33,486 nt of DNA from Myxococcales bacterium (GTDB taxonomy: Bacteria; Myxococcota_A; Polyangia; Palsa-1104; SHYY01): the NCBI GenBank assembly GCA_023248875.1, contig JAHFDT010000016.1, positions 1 to 33,486 on the forward strand. The letters are read 5' to 3'. Shown here one piece after another: positions 12,573 to 26,194 of this stretch. Positions within the stretch are counted from its first letter, which is position 1. Each line of letters opens with the position of its first letter. Position numbers and translations under genes: made by a program. The notes beneath the pieces were generated by a model, which ran no database searches, was not told where the DNA came from, and saw only the letters and a program-made list of their open reading frames with translations.

Positions 12573-13607
12573 CTATCCATGCCGATCGATCATATTGGAA
12601 ACAATCTGGGCCGTAAAATCCACCAAAGCGATCACCTTGGAGTAGTTCATCCGGGAGGGTCCCACCACACCCAGCGTCCCGAGCGGCCGATCCTCGGCAC
12701 CATAAGCGGTCGCCACCAGCGCCAGATCGGTGAACTCGCCCAGCTGCGCCTCGGCGCCGATGAAGACCTTCAGGCCATCGGCCTGCTCCGTCCTCTCGAG
12801 TAGCCCGACCAGCGTCTCCTTCTGCTCCAAGGCCGCGAGCAGCGCTTTCATCTGCCCCACATCCGATGGCGTCGCCTGTTCGACCAGACGTGCACGCCCC
12901 TCGATGATGACTTCTCCGCCCGCTTCGTCGTGGAGCGCCACCTGAGACAGCTCCAGGGCCCGCTTCGCCATCTGATCGTAGGTCGCCCGCTCGCTCGCCA
13001 ACTCCTTCGCAATGCGGCTACGAACGGCGGCCAGCGTGAGTCCACTCAGCCGCTCATTGAGATAGTTGTTGATGCGTTCGATCTCTTCGGTGGCCACACT
13101 AAATTCGGGATGGATTAGCTTGTTCTGGACATGACCGCCCGTAGTCACCAGCACCACCAGAAGCGATCCCGAAGGCAGTCGCATGAATTCGAGATGCTCG
13201 AGCGTCGACTGTGCCATACGCGGAGTCGTGAGCACCACGGTATGCTGCGATAGATCGGACAGCACCTTGCTCGCTTCGCGCAGCGCGGTCTCCAGCTCAC
13301 CCGTCGGCAGATCGTAGCGCGACCGCATCTCCTCCCGTTCGCGCGGTGACAGCGTTCTCACCTTGAGGAGAGAATCGACAAAAAACCGTAACCCCTCGTC
13401 GGTCGGCATGCGGCCCGCCGAGGTGTGGGGCTGCTTGAGCAGACCCGCCTCCACCAAATCGGCCATCACGTTTCGCACCGTCGCAGCGGATAGGTCTACC
13501 CCATGGCGCCGCGTGACCGTGCGCGAACCCACGGCCTCGCCCGTCGTGAGATACTCCTGCACCACGACCGAGAGAATCTTTCGCGCGCGAAGGTTCAAAT
13601 CAGTCAA
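12573..13607 (-). CDS. hrcA: Heat-shock repressor HrcA
   Basis: Transcriptional repressor that in other bacteria binds CIRCE inverted repeats ahead of dnaK and groE operons. 344 residues, with an N-terminal winged helix (VGSRTVTRRHGVDLSAATVRNVMADLVEAGLL) followed by the HrcA-specific PHTSAGRMPTDEGLRFFVD, and the C-terminal GPSRMNYSKVIALVDFTAQIVS. The start is a TTG at 13607, overlapping the stop of the upstream gene (TTGA). A TTG start may keep the repressor level low (inference). I saw no CIRCE-type TTAGCACTC repeat near this gene. Confidence 0.95.
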   Translation of the reverse strand: MTDLNLRARKILSVVVQEYLTTGEAVGSRTVTRRHGVDLSAATVRNVMADLVEAGLLKQPHTSAGRMPTDEGLRFFVDSLLKVRTLSPREREEMRSRYDLPTGELETALREASKVLSDLSQHTVVLTTPRMAQSTLEHLEFMRLPSGSLLVVLVTTGGHVQNKLIHPEFSVATEEIERINNYLNERLSGLTLAAVRSRIAKELASERATYDQMAKRALELSQVALHDEAGGEVIIEGRARLVEQATPSDVGQMKALLAALEQKETLVGLLERTEQADGLKVFIGAEAQLGEFTDLALVATAYGAEDRPLGTLGVVGPSRMNYSKVIALVDFTAQIVSNMIDRHG

Positions 13608-14545
13608 AACTTGAGCCCCTCCAGCGGATCTTCCGACGGAGTTGCCGTCGAGCTCTTCGCCGGCTTGGGTGCTGCCGGCCTCCCCCCTGCCGGGGCCGGC
13701 CTGGGCGCTGCATGCTCGTCGCTCTTCTGCGTCACGCGCCCGGTGATTTCGTCGACGATATTGGCGTTGCTGTCGCCTGCCACCGCCTCCCCTTGCGTCA
13801 CCTGGTCGACCAGCGCACCGGCCGATCGCTCGCGTGGACTATGGAGCAAGCGGCTTCGCTCGATCTCGGCAACCGCGCTCTTTTTCATCAGCGACAGGCA
13901 AAAGTTGCCATAGAAGTTGGTTAAATCGAGCGCCCAGAGCAGATAGTCCCCCATCGGGGCCCACTCCAGGTGATCCAGCGTCTGCTCATCGCTGGTGCGC
14001 TTCTTCCGAAAGGTGGCGGCTGCGGCCCCGTAACGCTTCTGCACCACGGTGGCAAAATCGTCGAATTTCTTCCCGGCAAAGTTCGGATTCTCCGCGTTGA
14101 AGGCGATGAGCTGCTTCCACAGCCGATCGTTGTAGAAGAAGAGAAAGCGGCGTTGGTCCTTCTCGAGCAAAACGAACATCGACTCGCCGTTCTTGTGGGC
14201 GAATTCATGATCGACGATCGAAACATCCCAGCCCGTTTTCTGCCCATCGAACTTGACGTAGCTATTCTTGACCTTGGCGACGGCCTCCTCCCGTTGCCGA
14301 ATCAGCTCATCCTGCTTCGCCGAGACCGTCTCATTCTTGATCTTCTCGTCGAACTGCGCCGCGATATCATCGGTGACCATCTTCATAGATTGGTCGGGTG
14401 AAAGATCCCAAGTGAATTTCCCCGCCAGCTCGCTGATCGCGCGGGGAGGCGCGGCGACCGCCCTGGCGGCTGCATGCGACGGCTTTTTCGCCTGTGCGGG
14501 CGCAACGATGGTTGCAAGCGTCAACAGCCCAGCTCCTATTCGCAT
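13604..14545 (-). CDS. Exported protein of unknown function
   Basis: A 313-residue protein with a clear signal peptide (MRIGAGLLTLATIVAPAQA, cleavage near 19/20), an Ala-rich linker, a charged helical middle part and an Ala/Pro-rich tail (about 265-305). The start was set at 14545 because GAGGAGAAG lies just upstream and the signal peptide begins there; the frame is open to 14638 without a ribosome site. I recognise no family. The segment with many aromatic residues (RRFLFFYNDRLWKQL) suggests a folded periplasmic domain. It is translationally linked to hrcA by a stop/start overlap, so it may be made under heat-shock control. Confidence 0.7.
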   Translation of the reverse strand: MRIGAGLLTLATIVAPAQAKKPSHAAARAVAAPPRAISELAGKFTWDLSPDQSMKMVTDDIAAQFDEKIKNETVSAKQDELIRQREEAVAKVKNSYVKFDGQKTGWDVSIVDHEFAHKNGESMFVLLEKDQRRFLFFYNDRLWKQLIAFNAENPNFAGKKFDDFATVVQKRYGAAAATFRKKRTSDEQTLDHLEWAPMGDYLLWALDLTNFYGNFCLSLMKKSAVAEIERSRLLHSPRERSAGALVDQVTQGEAVAGDSNANIVDEITGRVTQKSDEHAAPRPAPAGGRPAAPKPAKSSTATPSEDPLEGLKF

Positions 14546-14588
14546 GGGGACTTCTCCTCGGCGAGGTCGAAATCTAGCATACCCACTC

Positions 14589-14933
14589 CTACCTGGCGAG
14601 GTGGCGGCTGTAATCGCGCCGCAGCTCCTCGTCGGCAAGAACGCGGCAGGCCTCGTCCAGTACTTCGATCATCTCGCCAAGCGAAATGCCCAGCTCCTCA
14701 CGCAGCCCCTGCGATACCCGGTCGCCGCGAAACTGGTCGCGCATCCGCTGCCAAGCTCCCCGCACCTCGAGGGCCGTCGCCTCCCGCCCGACGCCCAGAA
14801 TTGCAAAGTAGTCGCCATCGTGGACGAGTGCCCGAACGGCCAGCGCCCGCTCCCGAGTCAGAGGTGTCTCGTCGAAGTTGAGATCGATATGGACCGTGCC
14901 GAGCTCCGGCAGGGTCCGCTCAAAGTCGCCCAT
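14589..14933 (-). CDS. Small J-like protein lacking the HPD motif
   Basis: 114 residues. The segment from about 40 to 112 resembles a J domain: DYFAILGVGREATALEVRGAWQRMR for helices I-II and VLDEACRVLADEELRRDYSRHL for helices III-IV. Between helices II and III, where J proteins have His-Pro-Asp, the sequence is DQFRGDRVSQG, so it should not activate DnaK ATPase in the standard way. It lies 43 bases upstream of the exported gene that precedes hrcA-grpE-dnaK-dnaJ. It may be a regulator or scaffold using the fold for binding only (inference). Confidence 0.65.
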   Translation of the reverse strand: MGDFERTLPELGTVHIDLNFDETPLTRERALAVRALVHDGDYFAILGVGREATALEVRGAWQRMRDQFRGDRVSQGLREELGISLGEMIEVLDEACRVLADEELRRDYSRHLAR

Positions 14934-14943
14934 CGCGCCTATG

Positions 14944-17160
14944 CTACATCATCGACACCGGATCGACATCCAGCAGAATTCGCACGCCGCGCAGGCTCTT
15001 CGTGCGGGCAGCGAGCAGCATGGTGCGAAGCGGTGTGGGCTGCGAGGCCTTGACCAAGATTTGCCAGCGGGTACGCCCTTTCAGACGCGCGAGCGGAGCC
15101 TCGGCCGGTCCGACGACCGAGATCGCTGCCTCGATGGGCGCGCGCGCCGCCAAACCTCGCAATCGCAGCGCCACTTCGGTGGCTGCGTGGCGCACGGCAC
15201 CGCCATCGGGGCCGTCGAAGCGGACTATTCCCAGTCGACAAAAGGGCGGATAGTTGAGCTCCTCGCGCGCCGCCCGCTCGCTCTCGAAAAATCGCAGGTA
15301 GTCGTGAGCACGGGCGCAGAGTACGCCGAGATGTTCGGGATTGTAGGTCTGAATCAGCACCCGACCCGGTCGCTCGCCACGCCCGGCCCGCCCGGCGACC
15401 TGTTCGAGCAGCTGGAAGGTCCGCTCGGTGGCACGGAAATCGGGGAGCCCCATGCCCTGGTCGGCGAGCACCACCCCGACGAGCGTAACGCGCGGGAAAT
15501 CGTGCCCCTTGGCGATCATCTGCGTGCCCACCACAAGGTCGATCTCGCCGACGCGCAGCCCGTCGAGCACACGCTCGAGGCCACGGCCGTAGGCGCTGTC
15601 GCGATCGAGCCGCGCCACCCGCGCGTGCGGGAAACGCTCCACCACCCGTTGCTCGAGCCGCTCCGTGCCCATGCCGAACTGTTCGATCGCCGACGCCTGG
15701 CAGCGTAGGCAGTGGGCCGGCACAGGTTCGAGATGGCCGCAGTAGTGGCATGCGAGCCGCTCACCCCGCCGATGATAGGTGAGCGTCACCGCGCAGTCGG
15801 GACAACTCATGCGATGGCCGCAGACGCGACAGAGAAGGAATGTGGCGAAGCCGCGGCGATTGAGAAACAACAGCACCTGTTCGCGGGCGGCCAGCGTTTC
15901 GTCGATCGCCCGTACCAGCGGCGCCGAGAGCAGCCCCTCGTCGGCACGGATCCGGTGCTGGCGCAGATCGACCACCTCTACCCGCGGCAGCGGGCGACCG
16001 GTGGGGCGCTCGACGAGCTCGAGCCGGTGGATGCGCCCGGCGCGCGCTGCCGCATAGGTCTCGAGGGAGGGCGTGGCCGATCCCAGAATCGCCAGCGCGC
16101 CCGCCGAACGTGCCCGCACCAGAGCGACGTCGCGCCCGTGGTAGCGAACTCCCTCCTCCTGCTTGAACGATCCGTCGTGTTCTTCGTCGACCACCACCAC
16201 ACCGAGCTGGGGAATGGGGGCAAACACCGCCGAACGGGCACCCAGCGCGATCCGCATCCGCCCCGCCTGGAGACCTACCCAGGCGTCGAACCGGGCGCGA
16301 TCGGTGAGCCCGCTGTGCAGCACCGCCACCTGGTCGCCGAAGCGAGCGCGAAAGCGCGAGGCCAGCTGTGGGGTGAGGGAGATCTCCGGCACCAGCACCA
16401 GCGCGCCCCGCCCCCGTTCGAGGGCTACGGCGATGGCATGAAGATAGATCTCCGTCTTGCCACTGCCGGTAATGCCGTGCAGCAGAAAGGGCGCGAAGTC
16501 GCGCCGCTCGAGCGATGGCAGCAGTACCGCAAGGACGCGCAGCTGCTCCGCGGTCAGCGAGGGTGCCTCGTCTCGCGTAATCGCGATCGCAGTGAAGGGA
16601 TCGCTCGCCCGCTCGCGCCGCACCTTGACTTCCGTGTTGCGTTCGACCAGCCCTCGCCCTTCCAGTGTCTTGAGCACCCTGCTCGCGCCAGCTCCGAGAG
16701 AGCTCACCTTGGCTTCGCCCTCGGCCTGGAGCAGCCGCTCGAGTACGGCCCGCTCCCGTAGCGAAACACCGTCGAGCAACGGCGATTCGAGCGCCTGGCC
16801 CAATCCCTCTGCCGCCCGCTGGCCCCGATCCGTCAGCACGACACGCTGCGCTTCACGGGCCCTGCCCCCCGATGGAACGAGCAGACGCGCCACCTCGCCC
16901 GGGGGCGCCAAGTAGTAGTCGGCGATCCAGCGCCCGAGCTCCACCAAATCCGGTGTGGGGCCAGGGCCGTCGATGATCCGCTCGATGGGTCGCGGATTAT
17001 CGACGATTGTCGTCGCCTCGCCGAACACCAAGCCCTCAACGCTGCGCCCGCCGCAACGCACCCACACTCGGGAGCCGACCGTCACCAACATCCCTTCCGG
17101 CACCGCATAGGTGAGCGTGGTGGGCATGGGAAGAAAAACCGCAACTTCGACGGGGTGCAC
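14944..17160 (-). CDS. priA: Primosomal protein N' (replication restart helicase PriA)
   Basis: A 738-residue 3'-5' DNA helicase that reloads the replisome at stalled forks. It shows the N-terminal DNA-binding domain (PLPTTLTY-like start), Walker A GITGSGKTE (about 229-237), DEEH Walker B (VVVDEEHDGSFKQ), paired zinc sites (CRVCGHRMSCPDC, CHYCG, CLRC) and helicase motif VI QVAGRAGRGERPG. Length matches the family. The start is a GTG at 17160, 5 bases after the galU stop. Ends 10 bases before the J-like gene. Confidence 0.96.
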   Translation of the reverse strand: MHPVEVAVFLPMPTTLTYAVPEGMLVTVGSRVWVRCGGRSVEGLVFGEATTIVDNPRPIERIIDGPGPTPDLVELGRWIADYYLAPPGEVARLLVPSGGRAREAQRVVLTDRGQRAAEGLGQALESPLLDGVSLRERAVLERLLQAEGEAKVSSLGAGASRVLKTLEGRGLVERNTEVKVRRERASDPFTAIAITRDEAPSLTAEQLRVLAVLLPSLERRDFAPFLLHGITGSGKTEIYLHAIAVALERGRGALVLVPEISLTPQLASRFRARFGDQVAVLHSGLTDRARFDAWVGLQAGRMRIALGARSAVFAPIPQLGVVVVDEEHDGSFKQEEGVRYHGRDVALVRARSAGALAILGSATPSLETYAAARAGRIHRLELVERPTGRPLPRVEVVDLRQHRIRADEGLLSAPLVRAIDETLAAREQVLLFLNRRGFATFLLCRVCGHRMSCPDCAVTLTYHRRGERLACHYCGHLEPVPAHCLRCQASAIEQFGMGTERLEQRVVERFPHARVARLDRDSAYGRGLERVLDGLRVGEIDLVVGTQMIAKGHDFPRVTLVGVVLADQGMGLPDFRATERTFQLLEQVAGRAGRGERPGRVLIQTYNPEHLGVLCARAHDYLRFFESERAAREELNYPPFCRLGIVRFDGPDGGAVRHAATEVALRLRGLAARAPIEAAISVVGPAEAPLARLKGRTRWQILVKASQPTPLRTMLLAARTKSLRGVRILLDVDPVSMM

Positions 17161-17165
17161 GGGCC

Positions 17166-18068
17166 CTAACCGTAGCGATCGATGAGGTCTCGCATCAGCG
17201 CCACCAGCCCGGGGCGAAGTTCAGGCCGTTTGAGGGCATAGGCCAGATTGGCGCCCAGATAGCCGAGGCGGTCGCCCGCATCGTGGCGCACACCGCGCAG
17301 CCGCAGCCCGTAGCAGCCATCGCCCTGCGCTGCGAGGGTGCGCAGCGCATCGGTCAACTGGATTTCGCCCCCCTTACCTGGCGCAGTGCGCTCGAGGATC
17401 GGCCAGATCGACGCCGGCAGGACGTAACGCCCGAGGATCGCCAACTGGCTCGGCGCGGTCCCCGGCGCCGGCTTCTCCACCAGCTGACTCAGTCTGAGTA
17501 GCCGCTGCTCGTCGCTGTCCACCACGACATCGCCGGCGACCACGCCATAGAGGTGCTCCTCCCCCGCGGGTACTTCGGTGAGCGCTACCACCCCCGCTTC
17601 GCCGCCGAGGCGTTCGAACACGGAGCACAGTTGTCCAATGCCCCCTTGCGGCAGACCCTCACAATCGATCAGATCATCGCCCAGCAGCACCGCCACGGGC
17701 TCATCGCCCACCGCCTGGTGCGCCACCGCCACGGCATGGCCCAATCCAAGCGGCTCCTTTTGCCGCACCGAGATGAGCCGAACGCGCCGCGAAATCGCTG
17801 CCACCTGTTCGTACAGCTCGCGCTTCTGTCGCTTGGCGAGCGTCTCCTCGAGCTCGTAGGAGACATCGAAATGGTCCTCGATCGCTGACTTGCCTCGTCC
17901 CGTGACCAGCACGATCTCCTCGATGCCAGCGGCGAGTGCCTCCTCCACCACCAGCTGAATCGTTGGCACGTCGACGATCGGCAGGAGCTCCTTCGGCACC
18001 GCCTTGGTCGCCGGAAGGAAACGTGTACCGAGCCCCGCCGCTGGAATCACCGCCTTGCGAACGCGCAT
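17166..18068 (-). CDS. galU: UTP-glucose-1-phosphate uridylyltransferase
   Basis: Makes UDP-glucose from UTP and glucose-1-phosphate, a precursor for surface polysaccharides. 300 residues, with nucleotide-binding IPAAGLGTRFLPATKAVPKELLP-type N-terminus (residues 8-30), LLGDDLI for metal binding, VEKP (the sugar-site Lys) and GEIQLTDAL. All typical of bacterial GalU. It follows the FlhB/SctU-like gene by 11 bases and precedes priA by 5, so it belongs to the same leftward run. Confidence 0.95.
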   Translation of the reverse strand: MRVRKAVIPAAGLGTRFLPATKAVPKELLPIVDVPTIQLVVEEALAAGIEEIVLVTGRGKSAIEDHFDVSYELEETLAKRQKRELYEQVAAISRRVRLISVRQKEPLGLGHAVAVAHQAVGDEPVAVLLGDDLIDCEGLPQGGIGQLCSVFERLGGEAGVVALTEVPAGEEHLYGVVAGDVVVDSDEQRLLRLSQLVEKPAPGTAPSQLAILGRYVLPASIWPILERTAPGKGGEIQLTDALRTLAAQGDGCYGLRLRGVRHDAGDRLGYLGANLAYALKRPELRPGLVALMRDLIDRYG

Positions 18069-18079
18069 GATGCGCCAAC

Positions 18080-18715
18080 CTACCGCGCTCGGGGCGGGTC
18101 GACAAGCTCGCGATGGCGGCGGCGGCGTTCGCTACCAAGGCGGGGATCCCCCTCCTCGTCGCGCTGCTGCCGTGCGATTTCGGCGCGGCTCATCTCCAGA
18201 CGGCGGGCGAGCTGCGCACGACGCAGGGCCCAGTCAACGAGTCCTACCAACACCAGCAGCCCCGCCATACGCACAGCGATTCGCCCAGCAGCCGCGAGGG
18301 CGAGCGTGAGGGCGATCGGCGCTCGCAGAAGATCGAGCTCAGGTCGCAGCGCCAGCGCAAGACTCGCGAGGGCAATCGCCCACCATCCGACGCGCGCCAC
18401 CAGTGTCGGACGCGGACTCCGTACGCTGCGCCAGGGAGCCACCACGATCGCGCGGGTCTGCACCAACCCAAGGAGCAGCGCCGCGCCGACTGCCGCCAGC
18501 AGGGGTAGACCGACCAGCCGCGCCAGCACGCCCCACACCTCGTGCATGGCCACCGATCCCGACCAGGCCGCGCGCGCCAGCTTCAAGATCCCGCCATCGC
18601 CCCCCAGTAGCAGCGTTGCGGTGCCGGCGCCAAGAGCGGCTGCGCCACACAGCAGGGGGCTCAGCGCGACCTCCCCACGCCGGCGCGCATCTGCATGTTG
18701 CCGTTCGTTGGGCAT
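18080..18715 (-). CDS. FlhB/SctU-like export-gate protein without the autocleavage domain
   Basis: A 211-residue protein resembling the membrane half of FlhB/SctU, the switch protein of flagellar and type III export. The N-terminus HADARRRGEVALSPLL matches the family's charged amphipathic start; about four hydrophobic segments follow. After them comes MSRAEIARQQRDEEGDPRLGSERRRR, the family's cytoplasmic linker (MSKQEVK...EGDP type). The gene then stops (TAG at 18080-18082), so the NPTH-containing cytoplasmic domain is missing altogether. The stop is followed 11 bases later by galU, so this looks like a settled short form rather than a visible frameshift. The ATG directly follows the stop of the barrel-protein gene. 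Confidence 0.75.
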   Translation of the reverse strand: MPNERQHADARRRGEVALSPLLCGAAALGAGTATLLLGGDGGILKLARAAWSGSVAMHEVWGVLARLVGLPLLAAVGAALLLGLVQTRAIVVAPWRSVRSPRPTLVARVGWWAIALASLALALRPELDLLRAPIALTLALAAAGRIAVRMAGLLVLVGLVDWALRRAQLARRLEMSRAEIARQQRDEEGDPRLGSERRRRHRELVDPPRAR

Positions 18716-19384
18716 CTACAAACCCAATCCTACTTTGAAGGTGACGCTGTCCCCCACGAAATCTAAAAAGTGCGGCTCATCGAGCGGATGCAACTTCGAG
18801 TAGGCGACATCGATCCCCTTGTAGTCGGAGTGGGCCCAGCCGATCGCACCGCTCACAAAGAGTCGGTCCACCAAATAGAGCTCCACACCGGCATCGATCC
18901 CATAGGTGTACATCCAGCTGATCGCGCTGGATCCAGCGATATCGCCGCCGATGATGCCGCCGACCAGGCGCGCGTCGACGAACGGGGTGACCCGCCAGGG
19001 GTACTGGAAACCGATGTCGAGGCCACTGACGAAGGACCAGACGCCGATCGACCTCCCTTCGAGCATACCCTTGCCCACGCCAAACTCGGCGTCGATGGCG
19101 ACGCGGAACCAGCGGGTCGAAATCGGATAGAGCTCGAGCTCGCCGGCATCGATCGGCAGAGGACTGCCGTCGAGTCCGGGCAGCGTGAGGCGGCGCCAGG
19201 CGAGCTTCAACGAGGGCGCAGGATGGCCCTCGTCCTCCTCCGGTGGCGGTGCGGGCTCGTCGTGTGCCTGAATGGTCCGAGCGAACTTGGGGTCATCCTC
19301 ATCGGCCCACCCCGCGTTCCACTCCTCGGCGGCCGCGGGAGCAGCCGCCATAAGCAGGAGGGACAACGCGAGGATAGAGAACAT
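18716..19384 (-). CDS. Predicted outer-membrane beta-barrel protein, function unknown
   Basis: 222 residues. It begins with a signal peptide (MFSILALSLLLMAAAPAAA), then an acidic Pro-rich segment (about 20-55), then alternating hydrophobic/aromatic strands (WFRVAIDAEFGVGKG, VSGLDIGFQYPWRVTPFVDARLVGG, GIDAGVELYLVDRLFVSGAIGWAHSDYKG). It ends SVTFKVGLGL; the pattern is that of a small outer-membrane barrel, although the final residue is not Phe. It lies between the FliR/SctT-like and FlhB/SctU-like genes, adjoining the latter directly, so an envelope partner role for the export gate is plausible but unproven. Confidence 0.65.
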   Translation of the reverse strand: MFSILALSLLLMAAAPAAAEEWNAGWADEDDPKFARTIQAHDEPAPPPEEDEGHPAPSLKLAWRRLTLPGLDGSPLPIDAGELELYPISTRWFRVAIDAEFGVGKGMLEGRSIGVWSFVSGLDIGFQYPWRVTPFVDARLVGGIIGGDIAGSSAISWMYTYGIDAGVELYLVDRLFVSGAIGWAHSDYKGIDVAYSKLHPLDEPHFLDFVGDSVTFKVGLGL

Positions 19385-19395
19385 GGAGACGGCTC

Positions 19396-19401
19396 ATTAT
19401 A
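19396..19401 (-). promoter_or_regulatory. Consensus -10 (TATAAT) before the barrel-protein gene
   Basis: The leftward strand carries TATAAT 11 bases upstream of the ATG at 19384, in the 56-base gap after the FliR/SctT-like gene. The region 17 bases upstream is G-rich and has no recognisable -35 box, so the call is tentative. Confidence 0.3.
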
Positions 19402-19440
19402 CCCTGCTTCGGTGCGCTCCCCCGGGGCGATCGGTGGCGC

Positions 19441-20115
19441 TCATCCCGCCAGGGTACGTGCGGCGGCGCTAAGCTCTGCGCCCATCCCACTCAGCCCACC
19501 GTCGAGCAGGCCGGCCAGCGCGGCAGCAGCGACCGCGACCGCGGTGAGCGCGAGCAGCCCCCGCACGGAAGCGAGTATCGCGCCGCCGCTGCGGGAGCGC
19601 CTTCCCGAGTCGACTCGGCGCACCAGGCCCCACGATAGATCGGCCAGCAGCAGGGCGGCCAGCACGGGTGCCGCCAACTCCACTGCAGCAGTGACAAGGC
19701 GCGCCATCGCCGCGACAGCGACTGCAGATCCACCCACGGGTGCGCTACCGAGCGGTAGGGCCAGATAGCTCTCGCCCACGGCCACCGCCCAAAAGCGCGG
19801 TCCGTCGAGCGCGCCAAAGAGGGCCAATGCCAACCAGAAGTACAAACGATCCAGTGTCACTCCTTGGGGGCCCTGCCCGACCAGCCGCCCGGCCACCTGA
19901 GCGGCGCGAAAGACCACCGAGGTGACAAAGCCCAGCGCCAACCCGACCGTCAGCTCATGTACGGCGGCTGGCCAGCCTTCGGCGACGCCCTGCTCGGCCG
20001 CAGGGAGTGCGGCCAGCGCGAGTACCACGCCGACCCACAACCGCGCAGCGCGGGAGGGGAGCGGCAACCCCACGAGTGCAAGCGGCACGGTCCGAGCGAG
20101 GAGCAGCCAGGGCAT
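19441..20115 (-). CDS. FliR/SctT-like export-gate membrane protein
   Basis: 224 residues, almost entirely hydrophobic, with about six membrane-type segments. The fold pattern, the conserved position after the FliQ/SctS-like gene, and stretches such as ELTVGLALGFVTSVVFRAAQVAGRLVGQGPQG, which mirrors the family's E-hxxGhhxGhhhxhhFxxhxhAGxhhxxQ region, support FliR/SctT. It is shorter than usual (about 250-260) and diverged. In known machines FliR/SctT joins FliP5 and FliQ4 in the helical core of the export gate. Its ATG overlaps the FliQ/SctS stop (ATGA). Confidence 0.75.
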   Translation of the reverse strand: MPWLLLARTVPLALVGLPLPSRAARLWVGVVLALAALPAAEQGVAEGWPAAVHELTVGLALGFVTSVVFRAAQVAGRLVGQGPQGVTLDRLYFWLALALFGALDGPRFWAVAVGESYLALPLGSAPVGGSAVAVAAMARLVTAAVELAAPVLAALLLADLSWGLVRRVDSGRRSRSGGAILASVRGLLALTAVAVAAAALAGLLDGGLSGMGAELSAAARTLAG

Positions 20116-20384
20116 CAGGGGTGCCCTAGCGAGGGCACCAGGGCCAACATTCCGGCCATGAACCGTCCCAGCTGCGCGCCGATCCAGGGAGCGGCGATCG
20201 CCAGGGCCAACAGGCCGGCCGCGATCCGGGGAACGACGCTCAGCGTGCGCTCCTCGATCCGGAGAGCGCTCTGAATCAGGGACATGACCAGCCCGGCCCC
20301 GGCGGCAGCGAGTAGTGGTGGGGCAGCGAGCAGGAGCACCAGGGAAAGCGCCTCACGTAGCGCGTGGAGGAGCGGATCAGCCAT
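20115..20384 (-). CDS. FliQ/SctS-like export-gate membrane protein
   Basis: An 89-residue two-span protein. The first hydrophobic hairpin LVLLLAAPPLLAAAGAGLVMSLIQSALRIEERTL corresponds to the family's LvhxhSaPxhhhAhhhGhhhSLhQAxTQhQExTL, and the second to the WhGxxL region (APWIGAQLGRF). Length matches FliQ/SctS. The start at 20384 gives the normal N-terminus (MADPLLHALREAL) and overlaps the preceding FliP/SctR-like stop by 8 bases; an upstream in-frame start at 20435 lies inside that gene and is rejected. Confidence 0.8.
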   Translation of the reverse strand: MADPLLHALREALSLVLLLAAPPLLAAAGAGLVMSLIQSALRIEERTLSVVPRIAAGLLALAIAAPWIGAQLGRFMAGMLALVPSLGHP

Positions 20385-21012
20385 AGCTTTCGATGAGGCC
20401 ACGGGCCAAGAGGTGCCAGCCATCGGCGAGCACAAACAGCAGCAGCTTGAAGGGCAGCGCGACCGAGCGCGCGTCGAGCGAATGCATGCCCAACGCGGTC
20501 AAGAGGCTGGCCACCACCAGCTCCAACACGAGGAACGGCAACAACAAGAGGAAGCCGACTTGGAAAGCAGCGCGCAATTCCGCGATCACGAAGGCGGGCG
20601 CGAGCACCAAGAGATCGCGATCGCCGATCGCCGCGCGATCCACCGGCGGTCGCAGACGGCGCGCCAATTCCAGGAAGGACTGGCGCTCGCGGTCGGGCAC
20701 GTGGCTCGCTAAAAATTCGCGCACCGGCTCGCGCCCGAGCTCAGCGGCTTGGGCCAGCGAAGCAGCGTCGCCTCGGGCCAGGCCGGGTGCCGCCGCCTGC
20801 CAAACCTTCTCACTGACGGGTGCCATGACAAACAGCGTGAGCAGCAGCGCCAGCGCGGTGATGACCGACGCCGGAATTGCGACCGGTCGGGAAAAGGCGC
20901 CGCGCAGGACCGAAAGCACAACGACAATCTTCACAAAGCAGCTCATCAGGATGGCTCCCAGCGGCACGAGCGCCGCGAAAGCCAGCCAAGCAGCCCAATC
21001 GCCCGGCTTCAC
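20377..21012 (-). CDS. FliP/SctR-like export-gate membrane protein
   Basis: 211 residues from a GTG at 21012 that overlaps the FliO-like stop (GTGA); the open frame to 21150 runs inside that gene. Clear family signatures: LMSCFVKIVVVLSVLR (22-37, closer to SctR than to flagellar FliP, which has a T-R pair), ALALLLTLFVMAPV (53-66), APAFVIAELRAAFQVGFLLLLPFLV (138-162) and ALPFKLLLFVLADGWHLL (185-202). No signal peptide. The conserved methionine stretch after ALG, which forms a gasket in the closed pore of known gates, reads M-H-S here (176-178). The PPN loop after LLR is also replaced (SRPVAIPASV). Confidence 0.87.
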   Translation of the reverse strand: MKPGDWAAWLAFAALVPLGAILMSCFVKIVVVLSVLRGAFSRPVAIPASVITALALLLTLFVMAPVSEKVWQAAAPGLARGDAASLAQAAELGREPVREFLASHVPDRERQSFLELARRLRPPVDRAAIGDRDLLVLAPAFVIAELRAAFQVGFLLLLPFLVLELVVASLLTALGMHSLDARSVALPFKLLLFVLADGWHLLARGLIESYG

Positions 21013-21329
21013 TGCCCGAGTCCCATCGTGCGACGCACCAGCGCAGCAAACGTTTGCGGCCCGGCCGGCTGAGCCTCGATCTGCGCCGCCTGCGCTGGAT
21101 CGAGCTCGGCGAGGAGGGAGATCGGCCCATCGCCAACGCCCACCAGCCAATAACGGCCCGCGACGGCGATCCCGTAGACCGACCGGCGCGGCTCGAGTTC
21201 AAGTCGCCCCAACACCCGCATCGCTCGCGAAGGACTTTCCCGTCGGCGAAGCAGCCGGAGCACCAAGGCCGCCAGCAGGGAGACGCCGAGGAGCGCTATT
21301 CCTGTCTGCAGAAAGTAGGAGGTCGGCAC
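21009..21329 (-). CDS. FliO-like export-gate assembly protein
   Basis: 106 residues: one membrane span near the N-terminus (TGIALLGVSLLAALVLRLL), a basic stretch, then the FliO-type cytoplasmic domain (VLGRLELEPRRSVYGIAVAGRYWLVGVGDGPISLLAEL). In flagella FliO helps FliP assemble and is not part of the finished gate; injectisome-type systems usually lack it, which makes the combination with an SctR-like partner mixed in character. GTG start, no ribosome site; the upstream sequence may be a promoter giving a leaderless transcript. Confidence 0.72.
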   Translation of the reverse strand: MPTSYFLQTGIALLGVSLLAALVLRLLRRRESPSRAMRVLGRLELEPRRSVYGIAVAGRYWLVGVGDGPISLLAELDPAQAAQIEAQPAGPQTFAALVRRTMGLGQ

Positions 21330-21390: not shown

Positions 21391-21894
21391 CTACCCTCCC
21401 GCAGCAGGAGTTTCAGGCTTAGACGATTTTGGGGTAGTCTTCTTAGCCTCGGCCTTGTCGCTGGGCTTCTTGGCCTCGCTCTCGGGGCGAACCACCAACT
21501 CAACCAACGACATCGGCGCCGCATCGCCGCGTCGGTTGCGTACCTTGATGACGCGGGTGTAGCCGCCTTGGCGCCCGAGAAAGCGTGGCCCCACGTCGTC
21601 AAACAGCTTGGTGAGCGCCGCACGGCTCTTCACCACGCGTGCCGCCATCCGAATCGCATGCACCCTGCGCGCACGGTCCTCAGCGTCGAACTTGGCCTCG
21701 TCCTTGGTCAGTAGCTCACCGAGCGAAGTCGACCAGGCGATCACTCGATCTGCATGACGCCGCACCTGCTTGGCCTTCACATCGGTGGTCTCGATTCGCT
21801 CATGCTCAATCAGCGACGCAACCATATTGGACCACATCGCGCGGCGGTGCGCGGATAGGCGCCCAAGTTTCTTTCCATCCTTTTGGTGACGCAT
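21391..21894 (-). CDS. rplQ: Ribosomal protein bL17
   Basis: Large-subunit protein near the exit tunnel. The N-terminus MRHQKDGKKLGRLSAHRRAM is diagnostic, followed by the conserved helical core to about residue 120. Total length is 167; compared with about 120-130 in many bacteria it has a C-terminal Lys/Ala/Pro-rich tail (about 137-167). It ends the alpha-type operon, 10 bases after rpoA, and precedes the export-gate genes by a 61-base gap. Confidence 0.97.
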   Translation of the reverse strand: MRHQKDGKKLGRLSAHRRAMWSNMVASLIEHERIETTDVKAKQVRRHADRVIAWSTSLGELLTKDEAKFDAEDRARRVHAIRMAARVVKSRAALTKLFDDVGPRFLGRQGGYTRVIKVRNRRGDAAPMSLVELVVRPESEAKKPSDKAEAKKTTPKSSKPETPAAGG

Positions 21895-24598: not shown

Positions 24599-24793
24599 TT
24601 ACAGCAGCTCCTGGTGGCGTTCGAGAAAGCGGGTCCCTACCCGTGCGCCGCTATCGCCCCAGCCGGAGGTGGCCGCCAGGAATCGCTGCTGCAGTACGTC
24701 GTCCGGCTGCGAGTACCCTCTCGTGCCCGCCGCAAATTCGAACATCTCCTCTGCCACCTCCAGGATCTCTTCCGGTGTATTATCAATGGCTTA
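24599..24793 (-). pseudogene. Cut-off C-terminal 63 codons of the glycosyltransferase gene, behind an in-frame TAA
   Basis: Directly after the TAA at 24791-24793, the same reading frame continues for 63 codons to a second TAA (24599-24601). It starts AIDNTPEEILEVAEEMFEF and ends RVGTRFLERHQELL. NTPEEI...EM and the closing FL..H..LL are the normal C-terminal features of TIGR04372-family proteins as I know them. The segment therefore belongs to the upstream gene, which is interrupted by a single stop codon and not by a frameshift. No start codon with a ribosome site is evident for separate translation. Confidence 0.75.
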
Positions 24794-26194
24794 CAAGCCC
24801 TGCTGGCGGTAGATCGCCCCCTGGACAGCGGTCGGGACGGAGGCGATCATCTGGGCAAAACTCAGCACCTCGGCACCGACAGTGCGCCGGAGAAGCTTGG
24901 GAAGGAATAGCGCATTCGGCGAGAAGGGGCAGCCGCCCACCAGCGGGATACAATTGGTCAAAAGAAACGGTACCCCAAAACAGTGCGGCACGAAGGCTAG
25001 CCCCGAACCGCTGCCGAGAAAGAAGCGACATGCTGCGCAGAGAAAAACGTCCATCCAGTCGCTGCGCAAATCGGTGTGCACATAGTCGACCACGCGCGAC
25101 ATCTTGGGCAGGGGGCGCATCGAGGGATCGCCCATCCGAAACACCCAGCCACCCCGGCGTGTGATCGACTCGATGGCGGGCAGGTAGGTGTTGATCTCGC
25201 AGTTGTTCATCTCGTTGCCGGACTGGTCGCCGTGGAACCCTCTCTCTCGCACGTGCAGACAGACCCACCAGGCGTCACCCGGGATCCCGTGACGAACAAG
25301 CGCCTCCCACCCTCTGCGCCGGTGGTCCTCCTGGAGCCGCAAGAGCGGCGGGCGCCCTTCGGCCCGCCACTGTCTCTCCGCCGCGGCGACGGCGAAACCT
25401 GCCGGGAGATACTGATCGCGCACCTGGACGCTGAACGAGATATTGCGATCGAGTCGCTCCGCCAGCGGGGTCAAGGCAGCGATGAGCACGGGATCGGTGA
25501 CGATGGAAAAGTAGTCTTTGAAATATTCGAGAAAGGCGAAGTTGACCACCTTTTCCCGCGGCGCGAGTACGATGGTCCGCTTGCGTTCGATCCAGCCGAG
25601 CTGCTCCAGTTTGGCGTACATATCGAGGAAGCTGATATGGCCGATTCCAACGTTGCCAGAAGGAAAGCCGAGGCGACTCGGATTCCGGGGAGTCGGCGCC
25701 GAAAGCAAGAAGCGCAGTCCCAAGGATCGTAGCTCGGCATATGCGGGTGCAGTCGCTCGGAACTCATCGGCCCGGCGCAGCGCCTCCGACCCCTCCATGG
25801 CCTGGCCATAGTTCCCGAGCGCCAACCAGAGCTCCTCGAGGTATTCGACCGGATCGGGTGCCAAATCGGCGGCCCGGCGAAAAGCCGCGATGGCGGCGGC
25901 GAGATCGGCGCGAGCCTCCGGATTCTTATGGCAAGTGGCGTGATAGCGGAACTGGTAGGCGCGGGCCGCACCGCCCCATGCTTCAAGATGAGTGGGCTCT
26001 ACGGCAATCACCCGTTCAAAGTTGGTGATCGCATCGTTGTACATCGACCGCAGGAGTGCCAGCTGGCCGAGGAAGAATCGGGCATCGACCTGTTCAGGAT
26101 CGGTTTGCAGCACGTCTGCCACCCGCCGAATCGCCTCCTCATGGCGACCCGAGCGGAATAGCTCCCTGGCCTCGTCGATCGAACCTTCAGCCAT
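24791..26194 (-). CDS. TPR plus TIGR04372-type glycosyltransferase, ended early by an in-frame stop
   Basis: The 467-residue reading frame has N-terminal TPR-like helices (about 1-130: [52 protein letters not shown]). The C-terminal domain carries the TIGR04372 putative glycosyltransferase features: VCLHVRE (311-317), RMGDPSM (353-359), [22 protein letters not shown] (382-403), and TNCIPL. The frame stops at TAA 24791, 63 codons before the natural end, so the protein lacks its last helices. It lies between map and rpmJ, where many bacteria have infA, and its ATG overlaps the map stop by 8 bases. Probably cytoplasmic; substrate unknown. Activity of the short form is uncertain. Confidence 0.82.

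Follow-up and report, generated by a model that had tools for sequence, protein, structure and literature searches.

A reduced type III export gate beside rplQ in a Myxococcales genome, probably part of a scattered non-flagellar apparatus

Gene content of the gate locus

Examination of the window, by which we mean the whole stretch of 33,486 nucleotides that was analysed, revealed at 18080-21329 on the minus strand a compact block of six genes lying directly after rplQ and coding for FliO, SctR/FliP, SctS/FliQ, SctT/FliR, a barrel-like protein and an SctU/FlhB-like protein. The conserved neighbours are rplQ upstream (21391..21894, minus strand) and, downstream, a gene for a galU-type nucleotidyltransferase (17166..18068, minus strand; Pfam NTP_transferase, 1.8e-23) followed by priA (14944..17160, minus strand; Pfam PriA domains). 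All six genes were found where the initial annotation, made from the sequence alone, had placed them, and each of the five gate genes scores above the curated cut-off of its Pfam model, so that chance is no explanation.

The first gene of the block, fliO (21009..21329, minus strand), encodes a 106-amino acid protein (Pfam FliO, 5.2e-14) whose orthologue in a genome of the same family, G001, is 45% identical and occupies the same place. The SctR/FliP gene (20377..21012, minus strand) begins with a GTG that overlaps the fliO stop and encodes 211 amino acids lacking a signal peptide (Pfam FliP, 3.4e-53). This protein passes the cut-off of NF009438, a model of the EscR/YscR/HrcR subfamily, and falls below that of the FliP model, which bears out the mixed SctR/FliP character, without the FliP signal peptide, that had been noticed at first. 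SctS/FliQ (20115..20384, minus strand; 89 aa; Pfam Bac_export_3, 8.9e-20) and SctT/FliR (19441..20115, minus strand; 224 aa; Pfam Bac_export_1, 5.1e-19) follow. The last gene (18080..18715, minus strand) encodes a reduced SctU/FlhB of 211 amino acids consisting of membrane hairpins only. Its match to Pfam FlhB (Bac_export_2, 3e-16) covers positions 150-240 of 335, and its best NCBIfam model is that of SctU, TIGR01404. The likeliest starts are 21329 for FliO, 21012 for SctR, 20384 for SctS, 20115 for SctT, 19384 for the barrel-like protein and 18715 for SctU, and all frames are open.

Among the window genes scanned, no FlhA, ATPase, ring, rod, needle or secretin gene was recognised, in agreement with the initial annotation, which had seen no FlhA/SctV, ATPase, ring, rod or needle gene in the window. 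A weak match to Spore_II_R at 13604-14638 lay below cut-off and was disregarded. In the window, a TPR-looking gene of 467 amino acids (24791-26194) separates rpsM from the following genes of the ribosomal superoperon, whereas G001 and G006 (loci L041 and L042) have a 251-aa gene directly after rpsM.

The barrel-like protein (18716..19384, minus strand; 222 aa) has an N-terminus that by eye resembles a signal peptide; it is probably secreted, and likely to the outer membrane. Its match to OMP_b-brl is sub-threshold (E 0.12; 0.03 for the best member of its family), and nothing meaningful was matched by the family in PDB or Pfam. Single-sequence structure predictions were too weak for use, with a pLDDT of 37 for this protein and 64 for SctU. 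Homologues occur in the gate loci of seven relatives, as an accessory gene of families f1, f3 and f5 only, in which the protein could be the outer-membrane partner of the gate.

Conservation of the locus

An rplQ gene on the same strand, at most 6 kb upstream of SctR, is found in the window and in the loci of 18 relatives. Downstream, same-strand priA is present in 15 relatives' loci and same-strand galU in nine, counts that are to be read with several other loci being cut by contig ends and the gate being located elsewhere in some relatives. The order rplQ-FliO-SctRST-SctU-galU-priA, first noticed in this single window, thus recurs in many families of the class, and the place of the gate beside the ribosomal operon is old and stable in many of them.

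Other type III genes in the genome

The genome assembly amounts to 4.0 Mb in 304 contigs and is 88% complete. One contig, C172, carries a flagellar export gate (FlhA, FlhB, FliR, FliQ, FliP and FliO) together with flagellin, FliD, FlgK, FlgI, FlgH and FlgG-type genes, and another, C52, carries flagellar FliF, FliG, FliH and FliI. In addition, the genome contains a second, non-flagellar set that has no gate of its own: SctV on C4, SctL-SctN on C123 and SctQ on C142. The SctV of C4 scores higher with TIGR01399 (SctV) than with the FlhA model, SctQ reaches 118.8 bits with TIGR02551 against a cut-off of 100.8, and in general the injectisome models of NCBIfam outscore the flagellar ones for SctV, SctN, SctQ and SctU. 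Together with the gate of the window, these genes occupy at least four separate places in the genome. The gate had been described as solitary, a description that no longer holds, since other contigs carry an SctV, an SctL-SctN pair and an SctQ that share its non-flagellar type. The displaced gate of an ordinary system, against which the initial annotation had set its own reading, is largely what was found, except that the partners are scattered and are also reduced. A SpoIID-domain gene near SctV on C4 was not seen in the map of the unannotated G002 region that surrounds SctV, and was not counted as a part.

The 88%-complete assembly yielded no SctJ, its sole YscJ/FliF match being the flagellar FliF. 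A short SctJ distinct from FliF is present in 64 of 96 relatives' genomes. A flagellum is thus not needed for the second system to persist, as 32 of these 64 genomes have no FliF. The SctJ proteins of G001 and G002 (same family) and of G006 (same order) are lipoprotein-like and have a C-terminal membrane helix. In G001 and G002 the gene adjoins ttcA, and as ttcA too is missing from the assembly of the window, an assembly gap is suggested, though not proven. A system ringless by nature was rejected for the family of the window, as both G001 and G002 have SctJ.

Elsewhere in the class, G029, G037, G045, G059 and G077 (family f14) and several f8 genomes have a second-system SctV, SctR or both, and no short SctJ at E 0.01; some of these f14 and f8 genomes are 99% complete, and they may have a truly ringless form or a very divergent SctJ. 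G004, also 99% complete, yielded nothing FliP- or FlhB-like, although it has a short SctJ and a second SctV.

Phylogenetic placement of the second system

Myxococcus xanthus possesses a needle-less T3SS* encoded by mxan_2434-2464 (Herrou et al. 2025, PMC12075869; Thiery et al. 2022, cited there), which acts together with the Tad-like Kil pilus to lyse prey (PMC12075869). The corresponding clusters of Archangium and Myxococcaceae contain SctL, SctN, a FliJ-like gene, SctQ, FliO, SctR-S-T-U and SctV, a content that agrees with what has been described for this T3SS* (PMC12075869) and for the 'Myxo' NF-T3SS (PMC3459982). Trees of three core proteins place the genes of the window's genome on the non-flagellar side. 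The ATPase of C123 falls among the non-flagellar ATPases (96/97) and there joins the T3SS* of Archangium and Myxococcaceae (100/99). The SctR of the window groups with those of rplQ loci, T3SS* and injectisomes, apart from the flagellar FliP clade (100/100). In the SctV tree the flagellar clade (100/100) again stands apart, and the C4 protein groups (99/96) with those of G002, G004 and G006, which belong to the same family or order.

Given the grouping of SctN with the T3SS* of Myxococcaceae and the non-flagellar position of SctR, we consider the block to be the displaced inner-membrane export gate of a second, non-flagellar, scattered apparatus of the 'Myxo'/T3SS* type, in a reduced and switch-less form, a reading to which we give a probability of about three in four. 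That the unlinked parts would form one machine is suggested by their phylogeny and co-occurrence. The presence of FliO and of flagellar genes in the genome would also agree with a spare gate for the flagellum, but a complete flagellar gate already exists on C172, SctR lies outside flagellar FliP in the tree, and relatives that have no FliF, among them the 100% complete G006, still carry the second system; this explanation is highly improbable.

Reduction of SctU

FlhB/SctU wraps round the pore, and its loop is critical for the gating of secretion (PMC7064499). At the rplQ locus, a canonical SctU has two membrane hairpins joined by a loop of about 35 residues, and its cytoplasmic domain carries NPxH. 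Alignments showed that in the window the TM2-TM3 gating loop is replaced by 26 unrelated residues carrying no motif. The protein ends 24 residues from the EGDP start, and the whole cytoplasmic autoprotease domain with NPxH is absent. The block had been called stripped-down, which is correct for SctU to a greater degree than was recognised, the loss of the domain and of the gating loop having been missed.

Fourteen second-system SctU proteins have no domain (G000, G006, G010, G028, G031, G036, G051, G054, G065, G070, G082, G088, G093 and G095), and all of them have short, non-canonical loops of 22-32 residues; among those with NPxH, the loop measures 33-35 residues in 13 of 14, the exception being G094, which was read from a split frame. 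These sequences are related, and the tallies do not represent independent events. Judging from the alignments, the losses of loop and domain go together. A degraded domain without the site was observed in f14 (G029, G037, G045, G059 and G077) and also in G039 and G060, and an alteration of the site only in G030, G035 and G038.

Loss of the SctV D2 subdomain

The groove between D1 and D2 of FlhA/SctV docks chaperone-substrate complexes (PMC9431611). The SctV of the window's genome is without exactly D2, with 8 residues in its place against 60 in G002 of the same family, and is 64% identical to the latter elsewhere. Mapped on a tree from which the D2 columns had been excluded, the D2 state changes seven times, six of these changes being forced by well-supported branches. 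As one of the seven hangs on a length threshold (G094), we count about six, and since D2 is kept in flagella and injectisomes, their direction is one of loss. The D2-less form is common to whole families. A strict coupling between the losses of the SctU domain and of D2 was rejected: G006 and G054 have no SctU domain and keep D2, and the reverse is the case in G047, G072 and G041.

In family f10 (G028, G036 and G093; loci L278, L279 and L280), the second SctV is only about 470-560 residues long and leaves the D2 region of the alignment empty; a larger part of the cytoplasmic domain may have been lost.

Selection on the gate genes

Comparison with G001, G002 or G006 gave dN/dS values of 0.24 for SctR, about 0.26 for SctS (against G001), 0.30 for SctV, 0.37 for the barrel-like protein, 0.41 for SctT and 0.60 for SctU, with 0.24 for galU and 0.09 for rpoA as references, figures that are rough as synonymous sites are near saturation. 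Values below 1 are evidence against a gate that is a dead relic. This evidence is weakest for SctU, which is the fastest-evolving gate protein and could be decaying.

A T3SS* remnant in decay, whose gate exports nothing any more, would account for the scattering of the partners, for an SctU without loop and C-terminal domain, for an SctV without D2, for the SctU value of 0.60 and for the SctJ not found in this assembly. On the other hand, the frames are all open, the values for SctR, SctS and SctV are close to that of galU, and the reduced forms persist in many families at a conserved locus. The excision of D2 is moreover clean, with the remainder of SctV 64% identical to G002, and is family-wide. 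Decay of this kind appears unlikely, and the relic that the initial annotation had entertained is not favoured either, given the rplQ linkage in 18 relatives' loci and dN/dS values of 0.24-0.6.

Putative function of the reduced gate

In type III systems SctR5S4T1 forms the pore, to which the ATPase, the stator and SctQ deliver substrates. By homology, SctRST of the window would form a helical pore assembled with the aid of FliO, SctV would form the ring below it, and SctN-SctL-SctQ would be the ATPase and sorting platform feeding it. The parts predicted to serve gate opening and substrate choice are gone, namely the SctU gating loop, the SctU autocleaving domain and SctV D2, which would provide half of the groove for chaperone-substrate docking. 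With these three parts missing, the apparatus would be unlikely to switch in an ordered way or to dock chaperones canonically. An apparatus with no specificity switch may constitutively export one or few substrates over the inner membrane; their probable destination is the periplasm or a partner, and the partner might be the barrel-like protein or, as in Myxococcus, a Tad pilus. A Tad locus is present on C174 (Flp pilin, CpaA-F and TadB/C, the names given by eye except for TadB/C), and its pilus may possibly work with the switch-less T3SS* during predation. Tad loci are common in bacteria, and the presence of one shows no Kil-like partnership. Transport activity, a substrate and a predatory role of the switch-less T3SS* are putative.

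The same absences, of the SctU gating loop and switch domain and of the SctV docking subdomain, could also be expected if the reduced gate were mainly a conduit, or an ion-conducting or nanotube-type platform, in place of a regulated protein exporter; the formation of membrane nanotubes has been reported to involve core gate proteins (cited in PMC9380563). A passive conduit would not need the export ATPase, the stator and the sorting-platform protein, which are kept, and we regard this explanation as quite improbable. The initial annotation had considered a different kind of envelope export or conduction device, which nothing in these results requires.

A broader proposal, which we advance only tentatively and which may well prove wrong, is that of a recurrent switch-less type III exporter: several lineages would have shed the SctU loop and domain and, independently, SctV D2, under selection, giving an export without hierarchy or canonical chaperone docking and a functional class apart from flagella, injectisomes and the described T3SS*.

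Relation to known systems

Like the M. xanthus T3SS*, the scattered system comprises homologues of SctRSTUV, SctN, SctL, SctQ and FliO with no needle or secretin linked to them, but the former is a single large cluster and the latter occupies at least four separate places. Furthermore, in Archangium and Myxococcaceae (L120 and L122) SctU keeps the loop and NPDH and SctV keeps D2, all of which are lost here. The window's system, with its reduced SctU, is regarded as a variant within T3SS*, because loop and domain are retained by other members of the class at the rplQ locus. The 'Myxo' NF-T3SS, with short and long loci, is clustered and was described from Cystobacterineae (Abby and Rocha 2012, PMC3459982). 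It is similar in being basal and non-flagellar and in having an export apparatus, an ATPase and, as far as close relatives of the window's genome show, a small ring, without secretin or needle (none being seen here beside the parts); it differs in that here the genes are scattered, belong to another probable myxobacterial class and include many members with eroded switch parts. A spread over several loci is shared with the injectisomes of Chlamydiales, which in contrast were counted as complete NF-T3SS (PMC3459982), no secretin or needle gene being seen here beside the parts. The apparatus is distinguished from the flagellar one by the separate gate on C172 and by SctR and SctV lying outside the FliP and FlhA clades, and from a host-cell injectisome, as far as linkage in the window goes, by having no linked secretin, needle or translocon.

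FliO in NF-T3SS of Myxococcota has already been reported (Andrianova et al. 2025, PMC12248157), so the mixture of traits remarked upon at first is in itself not new; to the extent of the available portion of that paper, T3SS* and its FliO are already known (PMC12248157) and a reduction of SctU or SctV is not mentioned. The literature covered, which was partial, described neither the scattered form linked to rplQ nor a repeated loss of the SctU loop and domain and of SctV D2. Lineages without the SctU loop or D2, in which selection still acts on the other parts, offer natural experiments on how little a type III exporter needs, and they bear on the workings and evolution of the needle-less predation machine of myxobacteria. 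Owing to the scattering, searches based on gene clusters would miss this system in a whole bacterial class.

Additional features of the flagellar genes

Several flagellar genes of C172 depart from the usual pattern. The flagellar FlhB (L008:15980-17041) has NPTE where the autocleavage motif would read NPTH. A PF01052 search showed no separate FliM, and two short single-SpoA proteins (about 104 and 89 aa) stand in tandem at the place expected for FliN at the end of the contig (L009:412-986). Finally, L008:6246-7097 encodes an FlgJ-like protein in which the N-terminal rod-binding domain is combined with a Peptidase_M23 domain and not with the usual glucosaminidase.
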